Of a stretch of DNA of 30,206 bases, positions 1 through 26,930 are shown one piece after another. Made by a program: the position numbers and the translations under genes. Numbering within the stretch: position 1 is the first letter of the stretch; the number at the start of each line of letters is the position of its first letter. The DNA is from a virus, in IMG/VR virus record IMGVR_UViG_3300025636_000019, positions 1-30,206 of that record. One strand, given 5' to 3'. Below the pieces are notes generated by a model. It was given only the letters and a program-made list of their open reading frames with translations, did no database searches and was not told the origin of the DNA.

Positions 1-372
1 CTCTAGGGCTATTTCTCCGTCTAGTTGGTATTTCTCTCTGTACAAGTCTCCACGTTTCAGCATAGCACCAACACGATTGGCAACTGCAAGCTGTGTATTA
101 AGAACGTCCTGCTCGTTATCGTTACCGACAAACTCGTCCTCTGTGTCATCTTTAGATTCGTCTACCAAATCCATACAAAGCAAAGAAATGTTAAATAAAA
201 GCGTTTGTCCTCTATCAACTACGTTGTTCACAATGAAGTGCGACAAAGGAAAGATTGTTTGTTTGTTTAAATCAACCTCAAAGATGTTTCCGTATGTTAC
301 TGTATTGACAAACGGGTCTTTCAATAGTTCGTCTTTTAATTTGTCTGTAAGGTTATAGAATCCTTGTGCCAT
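1..372 (-). CDS. Conserved phage virion-assembly protein, C-terminus beyond window edge
   Basis: The frame opens with ATG at 370-372 (MAQGFYNLTDKLKDELL) and stays open for 124 codons to base 1, so it is a 5' fragment of a longer gene. It holds segments such as DPFVNTVTYGNIFEVDLN and FNISLLCMDLVDES, followed by NDNEQDVLNTQLAV and a basic RGDLYREKYQLDG stretch. From memory this pattern belongs to a conserved protein of Bacteroidota siphophages that sits among head-tail and tail genes; a tail-completion or connector role is inference from position. It follows the tail-assembly chaperone and is separated from it by a strong terminator hairpin at 394-420, so its expression must depend on read-through or another promoter. 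No promoter is visible in the 22 bp between hairpin and start. Confidence 0.75.
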   Translation of the reverse strand, partial: MAQGFYNLTDKLKDELLKDPFVNTVTYGNIFEVDLNKQTIFPLSHFIVNNVVDRGQTLLFNISLLCMDLVDESKDDTEDEFVGNDNEQDVLNTQLAVANRVGAMLKRGDLYREKYQLDGEIALE

Positions 373-441: not shown

Positions 442-1175
442 TTATTTGAAACTCTTTTTAATCTTCTTATTTTCGAACTCTGTCTTGTCTTTTAAGTAAG
501 CTAGATATAAATAACAAGCGTGTAATGGATAACGTGATACAGGAGTTCCTATTTCTACTCCGATAATTCTTTGAACTTTTTCATCAGCGAGTGCAACTGC
601 TTCTTCGTAATTTCCCCACTTTTTAGCAAATCCTTTGACTCCTTCTCCAACTCCTCCCCCAAATAGTTCGGGATAGCTTTCAGCAATCCGTTCGTTAAAT
701 TGTAAAAAAAAACCGTTGCACCTAGTACAACCGATAAAGGTGCTTGTTTCATAACCTCCGAATATCTCGAAGAACCCTCGTAATCCTCAATCAAATATTT
801 ACCTCTTTGCTCGTGTATAATTGGTCGATACATTACCGCCATAGCCTTGTTCATATTGTCAAAGTCATTTAAGTACGTTGTAAGGTCTTTATTCTCCCCG
901 TAGGTTATACTATCCAACTTTGGGATGAAACCGTATTTAACACCATTTAAAACGAATGTAGGAGTAAACTGCTTGTCTTGTTCAAAGACTGAATTTATCT
1001 GTTCTGCAAATCCCTCTATCTTATCAGCAGGCAACATATTAAGTTCCTTCTGTGAAATGTTTAAGAACGTTGTGAGTGTTTGGTCTATCGTTGGTTCTTC
1101 TATCTTGCTAAATACTTGGTATTGCTCTAGCGTTATATCGTCAAGGCTTTCGGGAATTGTTATCTCTATTCTCAT
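442..1175 (-). CDS. Predicted -1 frameshift fusion of the tail-assembly chaperone (GT-like, 244 aa)
   Basis: The -1 frame relative to the chaperone at 555-1175 is open far upstream of the chaperone stop and continues 113 nt beyond it, to a TAA at 442-444. It has no usable ATG of its own. A run of nine T residues (704-712) is read in frame 0 as GTT TTT TTT TAC and is a good site for a -1 slip (T TTT TTT). Slipping there gives frame-0 residues 1-157 followed by 87 residues that look like protein, including FAKKWGNYEEAVALA, YPLHACYLYLAYLKDK and a basic end, KKIKKSFK. Tail-assembly chaperones of many siphophages make a short G and a long GT product by -1 frameshifting; the GT extension recruits tail-tube subunits to the tape measure. 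Transcriptional slippage adding one U would give the same product. Confidence 0.7.
555..1175 (-). CDS. Tail-assembly chaperone, short (G-like) form, 206 aa
   Basis: This is the frame-0 product of the chaperone locus. It begins MRIEITIPESLDDITLEQYQ and has the central motif YGENKDLTTYLNDF, then YRPIIHEQRGKYLIEDYEGS and the hydrophobic VVLGATVFFYNLTNGLLKAI. I recall this pattern from tail-assembly chaperone-like proteins of Flavobacteriia phages. It overlaps the upstream gene by 4 bp (ATGA at 1172-1175), which suggests translational coupling. In siphophages the chaperone binds the tape measure and keeps it soluble until the tail tube polymerises. Unusually, the tape measure here is not next in order within the window; it lies at 24963-26930, which would be downstream only if the genome is circular or continues past the left edge. 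Confidence 0.75.
   Translation of the reverse strand: MRIEITIPESLDDITLEQYQVFSKIEEPTIDQTLTTFLNISQKELNMLPADKIEGFAEQINSVFEQDKQFTPTFVLNGVKYGFIPKLDSITYGENKDLTTYLNDFDNMNKAMAVMYRPIIHEQRGKYLIEDYEGSSRYSEVMKQAPLSVVLGATVFFYNLTNGLLKAIPNYLGEELEKESKDLLKSGEITKKQLHSLMKKFKELSE
704..712 (-). other. T9 slippery run, candidate -1 frameshift site
   Basis: Nine consecutive T residues on the coding strand are read as GTT TTT TTT TAC in frame 0 of the tail-assembly chaperone. Both the P-site and A-site UUU codons can re-pair after a -1 slip. The site lies upstream of the KKWGNY segment of the -1 frame, so a slip here includes that apparently conserved segment. Confidence 0.65.
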
Positions 1176-1709: not shown

Positions 1710-2894
1710 TTAATAAACGAAGTATTGCCCTTTGTTCGGATTCTCTAATTGTGAAGTGATAGCGTAACGTGCAGCATCAATACAATGGTCAAAATTTCGA
1801 ATCGGTTTGTTTACTGTATTTCCTTCTCTGTCTTTCATCCACGTATAGGATTGTAGTTCTTTGATGAGGTTCTTACTTGACCTTGTAACAAAGATTTTGT
1901 TCTGATTGATTAAGTTGATTCCGTAAACGATTGAATCCTTTCCTTTGGTGCAGGGCAATACTGTATGACCGTAGGTGTTAAGTTCAGCTATTGATTTCGG
2001 TTCTGCTGAATCTGCATAAACCACATCCCTAATCCCCTTTGATTTGAATAAGTCTGATATATCACTGTTGAGCATTTTCTTTTGGTATATAACCTCGTCA
2101 AATATATAAGCATCGTTGTATTTGTATAAGCCTATCAATGTTGTAGGGTCGTTGCTATATCCAAAGTCCATTCCGTAACACAATAACCTTGCCTCTGTTG
2201 GTAAATCTATTTCTTTCCAATCGGTAATGCATACGCCATCTAAAGAACCTACTTGACCTAGTCCGTAAACCTTCCACCAATTCGCCCAATACGTGCTTTC
2301 TTTTGCCTTTTCTTTTGCTGATTCTATATCTGCCACAATAGTATCGGGAAGCGCTTCGTTGTCTAGGTATGTAAGTGTAATAAAATCTGCATCGTCGTTT
2401 CCAACTACTTCGGTGTGCGCCCAAAAGTTTGCCGTCGGGTTGAAGTCAATCCATATATCTCCGCTCGTTCTTATCGAGAGTTGGTTGTAGGCTTCAAATG
2501 GTACGTTGTTAGCTTCGTTTATGTACAAAGTATTACGTCTAGCACCTCGTAGCTTATCGGGTTGCTCTACGCTAAAGAATTCGATATATGAGCCGTTTGT
2601 AAATGTATATTTTAAAGACGACCTATTCCAATGACTATCCCTGTATCTTCCTGTCATCATCATCAGTTTAAGAAAGTCCTTAATAGCGCCCCTACGCAAA
2701 TGCGGTATTGATTCAGATACAACAGAGATTTCAAGCATATCATTTTTGGTTGCTTGGTTTATTAACGCTAAAAGAATAGAGAAAGTTTTAGAAGCTGATG
2801 TTCCTCCTTGAATTACTTTTTTTCTTCCTCCTAGCTCTTGTATTTTTAAAATCTTTTTAAGCGCAGTAGTTATCTCTATGCTAGAGTTATTCAT
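1710..2894 (-). CDS. terL: Terminase large subunit (TerL), 394 aa
   Basis: TerL is the ATPase and nuclease of the DNA-packaging motor at the portal. The N-terminal ATPase domain has a Walker A-like GGTSASKT at residues 30-37 and a Walker B LYINEA around 123-128. The C-terminal RNase H-like nuclease shows YGMDFGYSNDP (about 240-250), VVYADSAEP (about 291-299) and DHCIDAARYA (about 369-378), supplying the three acidic metal ligands. The length is normal for a short TerL with nothing missing. It overlaps the small terminase gene by 8 bp. Packaging genes here close the early block instead of opening the structural block; the chaperone operon begins at its own promoter just downstream. Confidence 0.95.
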   Translation of the reverse strand: MNNSSIEITTALKKILKIQELGGRKKVIQGGTSASKTFSILLALINQATKNDMLEISVVSESIPHLRRGAIKDFLKLMMMTGRYRDSHWNRSSLKYTFTNGSYIEFFSVEQPDKLRGARRNTLYINEANNVPFEAYNQLSIRTSGDIWIDFNPTANFWAHTEVVGNDDADFITLTYLDNEALPDTIVADIESAKEKAKESTYWANWWKVYGLGQVGSLDGVCITDWKEIDLPTEARLLCYGMDFGYSNDPTTLIGLYKYNDAYIFDEVIYQKKMLNSDISDLFKSKGIRDVVYADSAEPKSIAELNTYGHTVLPCTKGKDSIVYGINLINQNKIFVTRSSKNLIKELQSYTWMKDREGNTVNKPIRNFDHCIDAARYAITSQLENPNKGQYFVY

Positions 2895-15562: not shown

Positions 15563-16753
15563 TTAATTTACTAATGCTTGACATTCTGCATCGCTTAAAG
15601 CAGTATCATCTATTGTAAAGTTGTTTATTTTTAATTCAGTATGTTGTCCGTAAAAATGTAAAGAACCTAAATCTCTTTGTGTTGTCAATGTTCCACTTAA
15701 ACTTGAACCTTGTACGAATACTTTATATGAATTACCGTCTACTCTAATTACGAATTTATTAGTACTACTTGTAATTCCGCTTACTGGATAACCTCCATCT
15801 ATATGATTGTATAGTCTTATACCTCCTACATTATTTCTTATTGTAAAAGATGTTAAATTACTGCTATTCCTTATTCCTGCAAAAACCTTATTATTATCAT
15901 TTACATTCAAATCAGCATCTAAAAATAAAGTGTAAGAATTACCAATATTCAAAGGAGTTAAATCTAAATATGTTGGTATTGTATCGTAAACCCTCGTTAC
16001 TGCACTTCCAGATGTAGGAATATACGATGTAGCGTAACTGCCTTGTTCTAATTGTGCTCCGTAAATATAAATTGCTTCCCCATTTCCAGTATAAGAATTT
16101 TCATTTGAATTGTTATTTATGTATAAAGCAAATTGACTATTTGTCGTTGTTGGAGTAAATTTAAAACCTATCCTATACCAACCATTATCAAACGCTTCCA
16201 CGATAGCATCAGAAGAACCATTGGTTAAGTTATAAGTTTCATCATCTAAATTAAAATTTAATGTAGCACCAGTATATCCTTCGACTAATCTAATATATTT
16301 AGAATTATATTTTTTTACAAAACACGAAATATAATATGGTTGACCAGAAGTAACCGAAGAAGATAAAGTATCGTAAGATGCGTGTTGAGAATTACTTGAA
16401 TTTACCGTACTTAATGCTGCATTTAAAGTTCCGTCTGGACTTACAGTTTGATTATTAGCGACTGTTACATTTAATTTAGACCATCCAGTATCAATATCTT
16501 CACTTCTTGGAATTAAATTACTCCTACTTGGCTCTAACAACAAAGCACCTTTAGTATTATCCTTATAATCTATTCTTGGCTCGTTTGCACCTACTGTTTC
16601 GATTAAACCTTGTTTGTTTATTGTTGTCGCACTTGATGAACGCTCAAAGTTAAAAGGCAAAGGCTTGTAATTTCTGTTCTCGTCATTGTATGCAAGGATA
16701 GTACCTTCTTTTCCGTACCATTCTCCGTTACCAAATTTTAATGTATTCGCCAT
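15563..16753 (-). CDS. Lectin-like fibre/receptor-binding protein, third copy, 396 aa
   Basis: The N-terminal 110 residues (FGNGEWYGKEGTILAYNDEN, FERSSSAT, PRIDYKDNTKGALLLEPSRS) are shared with the copy at 16755-18044 and, from the FxRxSxAT motif on, with that at 18047-19201. The middle contains an all-beta, carbohydrate-binding-like region ending in GAQLEQGSYATSYIPTSGS. The C-terminus (LGSLHFYGQHTELKINNFTI, then DDTALSDAECQAL) resembles a LamG/concanavalin-like domain. It is probably a virion surface or tail-fibre protein that binds host glycans. It lies 1 bp after the second copy's stop. The C-terminal lectin region differs from the other two copies. Confidence 0.7.
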   Translation of the reverse strand: MANTLKFGNGEWYGKEGTILAYNDENRNYKPLPFNFERSSSATTINKQGLIETVGANEPRIDYKDNTKGALLLEPSRSNLIPRSEDIDTGWSKLNVTVANNQTVSPDGTLNAALSTVNSSNSQHASYDTLSSSVTSGQPYYISCFVKKYNSKYIRLVEGYTGATLNFNLDDETYNLTNGSSDAIVEAFDNGWYRIGFKFTPTTTNSQFALYINNNSNENSYTGNGEAIYIYGAQLEQGSYATSYIPTSGSAVTRVYDTIPTYLDLTPLNIGNSYTLFLDADLNVNDNNKVFAGIRNSSNLTSFTIRNNVGGIRLYNHIDGGYPVSGITSSTNKFVIRVDGNSYKVFVQGSSLSGTLTTQRDLGSLHFYGQHTELKINNFTIDDTALSDAECQALVN

Positions 16754-16754
16754 C

Positions 16755-18044
16755 TTATAATGTGTTTAAATTTAATTCTGTTACTATTTCGTTTAATGAA
16801 CGATAGCTTGTCATATATTCTAATTCTTCGTCTGTTAGTGCTGTATCGTAGTAGCCAATTTCTTTGGTTTTTCCGTAGAAATCACCAATATTATCCGACC
16901 TACTAAATAAAATTTCACTTAAAGTTCCGTTTGAAATCATTGTTGTATTTGCACTTTGACCAACCTCAAACCCATCAATCCACATCGCAAAATCTCCGCT
17001 TTTATATTTAAAACACACCTTACTATTTGTTATAGAAGAATTTATATTATATGTAAAAACAACTAAAGATGAAGCTCCAACCCTATAAACTGCTGCTAAT
17101 TCATTTGATGAAGCAGTATATTGAATATTTAAAGTATTTTCATAAGCGTTTGAAGAACTATTTTTTATAGATATTATTTTAAAAGTTCCATCATTAGCAT
17201 TCGCAGCTATATTAGCAAACAATACTCCCTCACTATCATTAAACACTTCCGAGTTTCCAGAACCATTAGCAGTTTCAGCTACACGAGTTTGGATTGAACC
17301 TTGTGTTGGGATGTAGGAAGATGCTACGTTTCCACTTTCTAATTGTGCGCCCCAAATATAGATACCACTTGTGCCATCTCCTTGATATGAAATTTCATTG
17401 TTATCAGATAATAATTGAATTACGTTGTAAAAAGTTGTTGCAGTTGCAGTAACTTTTATTGAACACCTATACCACCCATTACCATAACTTTGAATAGAAG
17501 CATTAGAGTTACTTTGTAAATCTACAATTCCATTTTCTAAATCAAATTCAGCATATCTTAAAAATGAAGCATTGTCAAATCTTAATCTTATTTTTTTTCT
17601 GCCATTTTTCTTTACAAAAACAGAACTTACATAATCTTGAGCAGAAACGCTTGATGTATGATACAATAAATGTGAATTATTATCTGTGTTTTCAGTAAGT
17701 TTATAAGCGTTTAAAACTCCTTCTGGAGATATGGATTGATTAGAACTTGCGGATGACCTTGTTTTAGTCCAATAAGCATTACTAAAATCTTCTGAATAAG
17801 TTACATAGTTTGTAGCTGCCTTTTCCAAAAGAAATACACCATCTTCGCTATCTGTATAATCTATTCTTGGCACATCTCTACCAACTACTTCTATCAAACC
17901 TTCTTTGTTTACTCTTGTAGCAATACTATCTCTCTCAAAAGAGAAAGGCAAAGGTTTATAGTTTCCGTTTTCATCATTGTACGCAAGTGATGAGCCTTCT
18001 TGATTTGCCCATATTCCGTTTCCATATTTAAGTGTTTGTGCCAT
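16755..18044 (-). CDS. Lectin-like fibre/receptor-binding protein, second copy, 429 aa
   Basis: It has the same domain plan as its two neighbours: N-terminal LKYGNGIWANQEGSSLAYND, FERDSIAT and PRIDYTDSEDGVFLLEKAAT, a beta-rich middle with GAQLESGNVASSYIPTQGS, then NDSEGVLFANIAANANDGTF and a LamG-like end with YGKTKEIGYYDTALTDEELE. The last part matches the C-terminus of the copy at 18047-19201, so this protein shares its N-terminus with one neighbour and its C-terminus with the other. It is likely a glycan-binding virion protein. Confidence 0.7.
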   Translation of the reverse strand: MAQTLKYGNGIWANQEGSSLAYNDENGNYKPLPFSFERDSIATRVNKEGLIEVVGRDVPRIDYTDSEDGVFLLEKAATNYVTYSEDFSNAYWTKTRSSASSNQSISPEGVLNAYKLTENTDNNSHLLYHTSSVSAQDYVSSVFVKKNGRKKIRLRFDNASFLRYAEFDLENGIVDLQSNSNASIQSYGNGWYRCSIKVTATATTFYNVIQLLSDNNEISYQGDGTSGIYIWGAQLESGNVASSYIPTQGSIQTRVAETANGSGNSEVFNDSEGVLFANIAANANDGTFKIISIKNSSSNAYENTLNIQYTASSNELAAVYRVGASSLVVFTYNINSSITNSKVCFKYKSGDFAMWIDGFEVGQSANTTMISNGTLSEILFSRSDNIGDFYGKTKEIGYYDTALTDEELEYMTSYRSLNEIVTELNLNTL

Positions 18045-18046
18045 AT

Positions 18047-19201
18047 CTATTCTATTACGTAGTTTTGTCCTTCTGCCATTGCTCTAAAGCTATCCCAAGA
18101 CGTTAATTCTTCTAAATCTATATCTGTTGTGTCGTAGTATCGTAGTTGTTTGGTGTTTCCGTAGAAAGGGAAAGCACCATCGCCTCTTTGAAATCTTAAT
18201 ACATTTAAAGTTCCGTTAGGAAATGTTGATGCTAACGTGTCTGAAAATATCTCAAACCCATTAACCCAAAAAGAAACGTCATTTTCTTTATATTTTATTA
18301 AAGCCTTACTAAATATTGTAATATCGTTTAATGTAACACCATATATTTCTCCGACACCACCTACATATAATAATGCTTGTAAAACGTTAGATGTACTCCT
18401 GTATCTTAATTGTATAATATTTGAGTTACTTCCGTCAGAAATTGTAATGTTTCTAAATGTTAAATCATCAGCCAACGCACTTATCTCCGCCATCAAAACC
18501 CCCTCTGAATCGTTAAACGTATCTGATAAGTCTCCTGTGCTTCCTGCTAAATCTGCTGCACGTGTAACGGCACTTCCGTTAGTTGGGATATACGATGTAG
18601 CGTAACTGCCTTGTTCTAATTGCGCACCGAATATTAATAAATCTCTTGCAGTCGCTCCTCCATTAGTATTTATATTAAAAAAACCGTTAGTAGATGATGT
18701 TTTCTCTACAACTATTCTTTGCCAACTTCCATTTAGAGTAAAAAGTGTTTCTCCACCTCCAACAAATAGTTGTATTGTTTCCCCACTTACACCTTTAACA
18801 TATAAACTTCCAACTATATCTCCAGTTGATGTAGTGTTTGTATATATGTTTTGACTAAAACTTGTAAACAATAATCTACTTGCGTTTTGTGTTCCGTCTG
18901 GAGATATTGCATAATTAGATGTTACATATAAATTTCCAGAGTTCCATCCAGAAAAATCGTTAGATTGAGTTATATAGTTTGTCCTACTCGGCTCTAACAA
19001 TAAACTAGGGCAACCTCCATCTGAATAGTCTAATCTTGGTACGTTTGAACCTACTGATTCTATAAATCCGTTTTTATCTATTCTCGAAGCTGTCGAGTTT
19101 CTTGTAAAATCATCAAAGTCAGCATCTGCTGAATTAGGCATAACTCCGTAAGCAGTTCCTGCTTTTACACCACTCGGTACGTATAAATATTTTAATCCCA
19201 T
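18047..19201 (-). CDS. Lectin-like fibre/receptor-binding protein, first copy, 384 aa
   Basis: The N-terminus (MGLKYLYVPSGVKAGTAYGV) differs from the other two copies and could be the virion-attachment end; homology starts at FTRNSTASRIDKNGFIESVG and PRLDYSDGGCPSLLLEPSRT. It then has GAQLEQGSYATSYIPTNGS and a C-terminal LamG-like domain (NDSEGVLMAEISALADDLTF, YGNTKQLRYYDTTDIDLEEL). It lies 13 bp after the 57-aa gene and 2 bp before the second copy. It is the first of the array and so the best candidate for the anchored subunit. Confidence 0.7.
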   Translation of the reverse strand: MGLKYLYVPSGVKAGTAYGVMPNSADADFDDFTRNSTASRIDKNGFIESVGSNVPRLDYSDGGCPSLLLEPSRTNYITQSNDFSGWNSGNLYVTSNYAISPDGTQNASRLLFTSFSQNIYTNTTSTGDIVGSLYVKGVSGETIQLFVGGGETLFTLNGSWQRIVVEKTSSTNGFFNINTNGGATARDLLIFGAQLEQGSYATSYIPTNGSAVTRAADLAGSTGDLSDTFNDSEGVLMAEISALADDLTFRNITISDGSNSNIIQLRYRSTSNVLQALLYVGGVGEIYGVTLNDITIFSKALIKYKENDVSFWVNGFEIFSDTLASTFPNGTLNVLRFQRGDGAFPFYGNTKQLRYYDTTDIDLEELTSWDSFRAMAEGQNYVIE

Positions 19202-24962: not shown

Positions 24963-26930
24963 TTATAAACTTGCTGATTCTATTATATTTCTGTCTAACT
25001 CTTGTGCAGTAGATACATCTGAAGCTACTACGTATGTTCTTGTAGGGGCTTTTTCTGCTTCGCTTATAGCGTCTGATAGTTGATTGATATTGCTACTACC
25101 TACGATATTAAATGATGGTGGCTGAACTGCTGCTCCTCCTGCCCCTCCTACTCCTGTATCAAGTGCTGGTGCTGATGTTGCAGACGGAACAAACTTTTGT
25201 TTTGCAATCATTGCTACTTGAGCTAAACCAAAAGCTATCGTTGGTATTGCTGCTGATAACCTCGTAAAGAAACCTCCTTTTGTGTCCTTCATCACTCCTA
25301 CTGCCGAGGCATAAGTGTCTATTAGTGCTTTAGAAATAGACAACGCTTTATCTATTTTGAATTGCTTTTCTTTAAGCTTGTCTTGTTTTTTAGCTAACGC
25401 AGCGTCATTGGAAGCTATTTTTAACTGTATCCTCTTTCTTTCTTCAGCAGATAAGTTTTCGTTATTAAGCCTCTCTCTTAACTCGTTATTTATTTTGTTA
25501 GTTTTAGCTTGTTCTGCTTGTATTTCTGCATCTATAAAACCTTTAGCTAAACCACCAATAGCTTCCCCTTTCTTTTGAGCTTGTTTAAGGTCATCAACCT
25601 GAAGTAATTCAATAAGGTCTAACTTCTTCTGTAAATCACTTCTTGTGTCTTCAAAATCTTTAGTCCTTAATTCTCCTTGTATTTTAAAATTTTCTTTATT
25701 AGCTTTAAAGAGTCTTTTAAAGTAATTGTCAGTGTCTTTTGCACTTTGCTTAAAACTCTTGTCCTCAAATAAAGCTGTCGCTTTCGCTCTTTTCTTTGTG
25801 TCTTTATCAAGGTCAAGTCCTATTTCACTTCTTAAAGAAACTATTTCTTTCTGTAATCCTAAATACTTATCATTAAATTTACGTCTTTTATCTAATAAAG
25901 AGTCTAACTGCTTTTGAAAGTTATCTCTTTCTTGTTTAGCCCTGCCTCTTACTCTTTTAAACTCTGATTCATAAAGAGCGTCAAAGGCTCTTGAGCCTTT
26001 TTTAACACTGCCTATTGACTTTACCGTTCCTTCCTCAAACTCTTTTAATCTTCTTATGTAAAAGTTTGAATCCTTTACTGCCTTTCCTGACAACTCATCT
26101 CTTAATTTAGACTCTTTTTTTTGTGTTTTGTTTATTTCTTCGGAAAGTTTCTTGCTTATTTCACTTTGCTCGTTTTCTTTTTTCTTGGATTCTATATATT
26201 TATCAAGTATATCTTTTTGTTCTTGAGCAGTTTTATTCCCTTTAGTAAGTGCATCATAAACCTCTTTATCTGTTTTTTTTAGTACTTTAAGTAAAGTGTT
26301 TCTTTCTTTTAAAGGCAAGTTAGCATCAAACAGTTTTTTAGAGATTAAAGTTAAGTTATCTGTTGATAATGATAATGAATTGTTAAAATCATCAACACTC
26401 TCCGTAAGTTCTTCAAAATACTTTTGTATTTTCGGTAAAAAGGATATGAGTAATTGTAAAGCAATTAAAACACCACCACTACCTAATAAAGAACCTGCCA
26501 AAGTCTTAAATGAAGCTACGAATCCTCCTTGTGTTTGTGCGTGTTGTCCCATAAGGGTAGCTAACTGACCAATGTTGTTAGCCATACCCTGCATACCATA
26601 TTGAGCATCAGATGCAGCTCTACCTGCCTCGACAAGGATAGCGTTATTAAGACCTGTTTGTGTTTTACCCTCTTTTGTGGCTTTAGAAGCGTTCATTGTT
26701 GAGATAGCTAACTCTTTATTAGCTTTTGCAGCTAATTGGGCTTTTATCTGTAAATCCGCTAATTCCCTACCTTGCTCTGACTCTTGAAACGTTGCCTCTT
26801 CGGAAGCCCTCTTGAGTCTCTTTTCGGCAGCAGTTAATCCATCAATAGAGTCTTTAGCTTTCTTCGCCCCAGTAGTTACCCCTTTATCTCTTAACTCAAC
26901 ACTAATTATTACTTTTTCACTTTGTGCCAT
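24963..26930 (-). CDS. Tail tape measure protein, 655 aa
   Basis: The protein is a long, mainly helical coiled-coil protein with a hydrophobic segment (about 146-166) near the first third (AGSLLGSGGVLIALQLLISF), long Lys/Glu-rich helices (about 250-540), and a Gly/Ala-rich C-terminal end (GVGGAGGAA). This is the typical tape-measure plan. At about 0.15 nm per residue it would set a tail of about 98 nm at most. It overlaps the 49-aa ORF by 14 bp. Its chaperone gene is at 442-1175, far away in this window. Confidence 0.85.
   Translation of the reverse strand: MAQSEKVIISVELRDKGVTTGAKKAKDSIDGLTAAEKRLKRASEEATFQESEQGRELADLQIKAQLAAKANKELAISTMNASKATKEGKTQTGLNNAILVEAGRAASDAQYGMQGMANNIGQLATLMGQHAQTQGGFVASFKTLAGSLLGSGGVLIALQLLISFLPKIQKYFEELTESVDDFNNSLSLSTDNLTLISKKLFDANLPLKERNTLLKVLKKTDKEVYDALTKGNKTAQEQKDILDKYIESKKKENEQSEISKKLSEEINKTQKKESKLRDELSGKAVKDSNFYIRRLKEFEEGTVKSIGSVKKGSRAFDALYESEFKRVRGRAKQERDNFQKQLDSLLDKRRKFNDKYLGLQKEIVSLRSEIGLDLDKDTKKRAKATALFEDKSFKQSAKDTDNYFKRLFKANKENFKIQGELRTKDFEDTRSDLQKKLDLIELLQVDDLKQAQKKGEAIGGLAKGFIDAEIQAEQAKTNKINNELRERLNNENLSAEERKRIQLKIASNDAALAKKQDKLKEKQFKIDKALSISKALIDTYASAVGVMKDTKGGFFTRLSAAIPTIAFGLAQVAMIAKQKFVPSATSAPALDTGVGGAGGAAVQPPSFNIVGSSNINQLSDAISEAEKAPTRTYVVASDVSTAQELDRNIIESASL

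Follow-up and report, generated by a model that had tools for sequence, protein, structure and literature searches.

A conserved U9 run and a probable programmed -1 frame transition in a dual-product gene family of environmental phages

Comparative analysis of a gene in IMG/VR virus record IMGVR_UViG_3300025636_000019 suggests that one phage gene would yield two proteins, its conserved run of nine U's (U9) being the site of a programmed -1 frame transition. The predicted products are 206 aa (frame 0 throughout) and 244 aa (transframe) in length; in the latter, 157 residues read in frame 0 are followed by 87 residues read in the -1 frame. Judged from the sequences of relatives, a two-product transition is very probable, irrespective of the machine that slips and of a role as chaperone, and two products that share their amino-terminal part (N part) through a -1 transition, as the comparative evidence indicates here, are a mark of genes of the lambda G/GT kind. 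The features of the site are listed below by position in the window, which is the whole 30,206-nucleotide stretch that was analysed (positions 1 to 30,206 of the record).

555-1175, minus strand: frame-0 ORF for the short product, 206 aa, of which residues 1-157 are common with the transframe product
704-712, minus strand: candidate T9 (U9) slip site, GTT TTT TTT T, with the in-phase heptamer U_UUU_UUU at 705-711
442-705, minus strand: -1 frame segment, 87 aa and TAA, the carboxy-terminal part (C part) of the predicted 244-aa transframe product
555-704, minus strand: frame-0 tail, which also codes in the -1 frame (dual-coded) and is closed by the stop at 555-557
695-697, minus strand: +1 frame stop, two codons past the T9 run

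Read directly on the minus strand, G713 is followed by T712-T704 and frame 0 is GTT TTT TTT TAC. The -1 frame is open from stop to stop, from 786 to the TAA at 442-444, and overshoots the frame-0 stop by 113 nt; the 87-residue segment (705-445) contains no Met in the window, and the frame junction in the protein would be VFF-LQFNER. The original prediction had described nine T's at 704-712 and a -1 frame, open to a TAA at 442 and lacking an ATG of its own, and the sequence agrees. It had also held that a classical heptamer of mixed bases is missing, which holds in part, as U_UUU_UUU (711-705) sits in phase. Any T9 run contains an in-phase X_XXY_YYZ heptamer, whatever the phase of the run. Only one T9 run was found on the two strands of the window, compared with 5.5 expected from dinucleotide shuffles; because a lone run of this length is unsurprising in AT-rich DNA, the case rests on conservation.

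Relatives were collected by scanning IMG/VR with the frame-0 protein, a fusion profile, a distant profile and the -1 domain alone, and any T run of seven or more was admitted to the pooled set. This set holds at least 292 loci, mostly on metagenomic contigs, so that locus counts are not counts of independent events; since several loci were fetched more than once, we count 226 distinct 150-nt sites, which form 68 clusters when the -1 products are grouped at 70% identity. In all of the at least 292 loci the run is nine, rarely ten, nucleotides long, never seven or eight, and the -1 frame is open. At least 80 of the loci were recovered by the -1 domain query on its own. Runs of ten are of two types, one with an extra T in the codon ahead of the two Phe codons (loci L195 and L216) and one with a TTG or TTA codon inserted after them; the second type occurs in 19 of the loci L253-L308, where the run stays long, and the -1 relation is preserved by both types. 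These comparisons indicate that the conservation of the T9 run is beyond chance. A conserved A/T homopolymer of at least about nine nucleotides at the junction of overlapping ORFs, one mark of a transcriptional slippage site, is thereby present. The relatives are environmental phages, largely uncultured, and the few known hosts are marine flavobacteria; among bacterial genomes a single contig matched, in a Winogradskyella MAG.

One cultured relative is the Nonlabens phage P12024S (Inhavirus), which at about 30% identity also carries a T9 run, CTT TTT TTT TAT. Its genes 38 and 39 (locus L082, 6001-6695) comprise the same gene with the same -1 continuation, but they are annotated as two separate hypothetical genes and the frame-0 tail is shorter, and P12024L likewise matches in two pieces. 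Comparison with the window suggests that genes 38 and 39 are probably one frameshifted gene, with 39 in the -1 continuation. The separate annotation of gene 39 would suit an alternative in which the -1 segment is a gene of its own, with its own start and translationally coupled to the first; however, 90 of 92 representatives lack an ATG within the segment's first 45 codons, and 52 of the 92 lack ATG, GTG and TTG alike. With the Met-free segment of the window added, we consider a separate gene highly unlikely. An ordinary gene split by a homopolymer error in sequencing or assembly is more improbable again, close to negligible: T9 runs are error-prone, the remote homologues are uninterrupted and Flavobacterium phage 6H resembles an error case, but run length and frame relation are the same in at least 292 loci on many separate contigs, the frame-0 tail is itself kept open and silent bases are fixed.

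Selection was measured on both frames downstream of the run. Over 992 pairs, which are not independent of one another, pN/pS is 0.16 upstream, 0.30 for the -1 segment inside the overlap and 0.29 beyond it, compared with 0.70 for the frame-0 tail and 2.23 for the +1 control frame. By this measure the -1 segment is under purifying selection. When constraint was placed on the -1 frame alone in simulation (-1 pN/pS 0.25), the frame-0 tail gave a pN/pS of about 1.07, and the simulated value nears 0.7 when the frame-0 constraint is about 0.5; the tail appears, on these values, to be weakly constrained. Its length points the same way. With the -1 protein fixed and its codons reshuffled, the mean frame-0 tail is 22 codons, as against an observed median of 61, and the tail is longer than expected with a median P of 0.025 (below 0.05 in 60 of 92 representatives). 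Taken together, the constraint on the -1 segment and a frame-0 tail that is kept open suggest that both ends are selected. The +1 frame, by comparison, ends two residues after the run in 85 of the 92 representatives. The original prediction had proposed a -1 transition at U9 and a search for purifying selection in relatives as its check; the value of 0.30 for the -1 frame and a U9 (rarely U10) run that is invariant in at least 292 loci support the transition.

Codon choice at the site is strongly biased. The Phe codons of the run are TTT in 184 of 184 cases, compared with a TTT:TTC ratio of 519:168 (TTT 76%) elsewhere in the gene, and the codon ahead of the Phe pair ends in T in all 92 representatives. 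The silent bases T2, T5 and T8, which are wobble positions of U_UUU_UUU besides being part of the nine-run, are thus fixed. Where the -1 codon is TTA or TTG, a change of T8 to C would alter neither protein, yet it is unseen. The site also displays one mark of a ribosomal -1 site, an in-phase X_XXY_YYZ heptamer (here U_UUU_UUU) with conserved silent bases. T1 and T9 are non-silent positions. Other hydrophobic columns have T at the second codon position at frequencies of about 0.9-1.0, nearly as often, so that T1 says little, and both T1 and T9 can be explained by hydrophobic residues. In frame 0, T9 is the first base of a T-initial codon (Y, W, L, S or C); in the -1 frame it is the middle base of an L or F codon. 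In four of five uninterrupted homologues the residue after the matching aromatic pair is A, G, A or E, which hints that T9 may be kept for the sake of the run. We also considered the nine invariant T's as proof that nine bases are required, an argument that is weakened by the possible coding constraint on T1 and T9.

Two machines could produce the transition, and the original prediction had named polymerase slippage as well. As in Shigella mxiE, RNA polymerase would insert a single U at the run, and we give about an even chance to a slip made mainly by the polymerase. Bacterial RNA polymerase slips efficiently at nine A or T, the Thermus hybrid being 9-10 bp (PMC5009743), and selection against runs is evident from length nine in a large share of genomes (PMC1088944). 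In keeping with a polymerase, T9 is always T whichever frame-0 residue (Y, W, L, S or C) follows, the minimum run is nine and no stimulatory RNA structure was found. The same two products would arise if the ribosome slipped instead, with the Phe tRNAs in the P and A sites moving in tandem by -1 on U_UUU_UUU and with no stimulator, and we rate this as a serious possibility that falls somewhat short of an even chance. The heptamer is in phase and its wobble bases T2, T5 and T8 are fixed; the lambda-type tail-chaperone frameshift is ribosomal and certain tailed-phage shifts seem to proceed without stimulators, according to a review (PMC5009743); and 6-7% shifting has been measured in tail-chaperone genes of an HK97-like phage cluster (PMC3711429). 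On the other side, E. coli ribosomes shift far less readily on U_UUU_UUU than on A_AAA_AAG (PMC5009743); seven U's would be enough for a ribosome, yet a run of seven or eight occurs in 0 of 226 distinct sites, and the silent alternative U_UUU_UUC is unseen. Since the runs are of nine or more and never of seven or eight, RNA polymerase is slightly favoured over the ribosome; the small remaining share of probability goes to polymerase and ribosomal slippage acting together or to some other route.

The other genes of these phages do not single out either machine. Where a preceding T completes a run of seven (the ribosomal phase), TTT-TTT pairs show a 2.6-fold deficit relative to TTC-TTT pairs, and where a following T completes it the deficit is about 3-fold; avoidance of T7 is thus of similar strength in that phase and outside it, which suggests an effect of the homopolymer itself. 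On the coding strand of the other genes in the fetched loci, the numbers of T runs fall sharply from six to seven, and those of A runs fall most at nine.

No stem-loop or pseudoknot, a stimulator that many but not all ribosomal -1 sites have, was found downstream of the run, where mean z is -0.03 and -0.24 and the consensus energy of 14 sequences is -0.61 kcal/mol, and the two Rfam matches are weak, both being under the gathering scores. Upstream, the window and its close relatives L001 and L005 have a 7-bp hairpin (731-715, minus strand) whose end is 2 nt short of the T9 run, but the family has no excess of such hairpins, with 12 observed among 92 representatives against 9.7 expected from synonymous reshuffling. 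The hairpin at 715-731 resembles a terminator. A second terminator-like hairpin with a T-rich tail lies at 398-423 on the minus strand, between the stop of the -1 frame and the next gene, and may limit downstream transcription.

The identification of the gene as a tail-assembly chaperone, as the original prediction had it, found no backing in sequence searches. In PHROGs the N part matches phrog_32199, of unknown function, and the window's -1 domain has no match; neither part of the window protein has a match in Pfam or NCBIfam, one member of the fusion alignment matches DUF3841 weakly, and lambda G and T align to the family at chance level only (hhalign). The two AlphaFold models have a mean pLDDT of 87 and 86, the latter for the -1 segment. 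No solved structure matches by sequence. For the frame-0 model, PDB matches are all below significance, with one VIA-align row at Z 2.1, and the -1 domain has neither a significant match in BFVD nor a PDB chain to align. In BFVD nearly all matches of the N part are uncharacterised phage proteins, one weak match being named tail assembly chaperone.

The neighbourhood of the gene bears on the same identity and includes the following features.

1710-2894, minus strand: terminase large subunit (phrog_2, E 9e-37), upstream and separated from the gene by small ORFs
1-372, minus strand: next downstream gene, cut by the window end (phrog_30964, function unknown), by reading similar to P12024S gene 41
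24963-26930, minus strand: tape-measure-like protein of 655 aa, judged by composition, with a weak minor tail protein match (phrog_226, E 0.0097)

The gene thus lies downstream of terminase, and in P12024S the frameshift gene directly follows it; in the Duneviridae relatives the gene is at least two genes upstream of the tape measure. Neither in the window nor in P12024S does the gene lie between the major tail protein and the tape measure, the position that marks G/GT genes. This position, the missing family and profile matches and the existence of remote homologues in one ORF are in keeping with a frame transition that serves something other than a G/GT chaperone, such as a virion or connector protein made with or without an extended C part. 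We regard that as a real possibility, if not quite an even one, because two products made by -1 transition, where the genome also encodes a tape-measure-like protein, follow the chaperone pattern and the weak fold match is to a protein of that name. In a G/GT-like scheme, the shared domain would act together with the tape measure protein, and a second contact would come from the -1 domain. That the pair works like lambda G/GT is, in our estimate, slightly favoured; given the lack of a family match and the different gene order, the pair may work like G/GT and is not classed as a member. More tentative is the combined proposal that polymerase slippage, and not the ribosome, sets the short:long ratio of a tail-assembly chaperone in these phages, which we put appreciably below an even chance.

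Remote homologues of the N part are uninterrupted single ORFs of 259-301 aa, which we count in favour of the frame transition. They belong to phrog_25418, which is linked by profile (E 4e-12 for the fusion and 1.7e-10 for frame 0) and includes Duneviridae members (FPSV-F7, laban6-1, Ingeline_1), Polaribacter phage Leef_1 and Microcystis phage Mea-Yong924-1. Their N part is homologous, while the C part is collinear but weakly similar alone, and the single ORF involves no shift. Alone, the -1 domain matches the C part of these homologues only weakly (E 0.0047, probability 7.5%), and a profile of the frame-0 tail likewise aligns to that part. Homology of the whole transframe protein to the uninterrupted Duneviridae protein was rejected, the -1 domain match being too weak, and homology was kept for the N part only.

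Several known systems resemble the gene described here. Lambda G/GT and HK97 gp13/gp13-14 are likewise tailed-phage genes in which one -1 shift yields a short and a long product with a shared N part, the HK97 record reading 'translated due to a -1 frameshift'. In contrast to both, the slip site here is U9/U10 and the frame-0 product has a dual-coded tail, which from the xTT codon spans 51-85 codons in most loci and 28 in P12024S; in contrast to lambda, the gene is downstream of terminase and has no detectable profile similarity to G or T. In Shigella mxiE, a U run inside the ORF likewise lets one extra mRNA nucleotide join two ORFs (PMC1088944), at a slippage rate of 20-30% (PMC4256274), but mxiE is a regulator, whereas the present gene belongs to a phage structural region and its slippage is inferred from sequence. 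Citrobacter tssM1 (A11) and Thermus dnaX (A9) also yield two length variants per gene from a homopolymer of at least nine, and in tssM1 the ratio of the two variants is functional (PMC4256274, PMC1088944); these are A runs in other genes, with slippage demonstrated on RNA.

Our analysis puts on record, in environmental phages, a large family of genes with two predicted products, the longer of which is not annotated as such. With U9/U10 throughout, no stimulator found, apparent selection on each of the two frames and shift-free remote relatives, the site is well suited to a test of ribosomal against transcriptional slippage. Should polymerase slippage prove true, the phage would set the ratio of its two forms at transcription, as Citrobacter does for tssM1, and if that ratio were one of chaperone forms, the lambda G/GT strategy would have been reached via another machine.

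Two further observations concern neighbouring and related genes. In Flavobacterium phage 6H (NC_021867; locus L228, 10044-10927), gp10 stops just past a T6 run and an unannotated gap of about 300 nt after it holds the remainder of the protein in another frame, while FPSV-F7, a close relative of 6H, has one ORF of 293 aa; the break in gp10 looks like either a mistake in sequencing the homopolymer or a disruption of recent origin. In the window itself, three consecutive genes at 15563-19201 on the minus strand (384, 429 and 396 aa) match the tail family phrog_5939 and are probably tandem paralogues.
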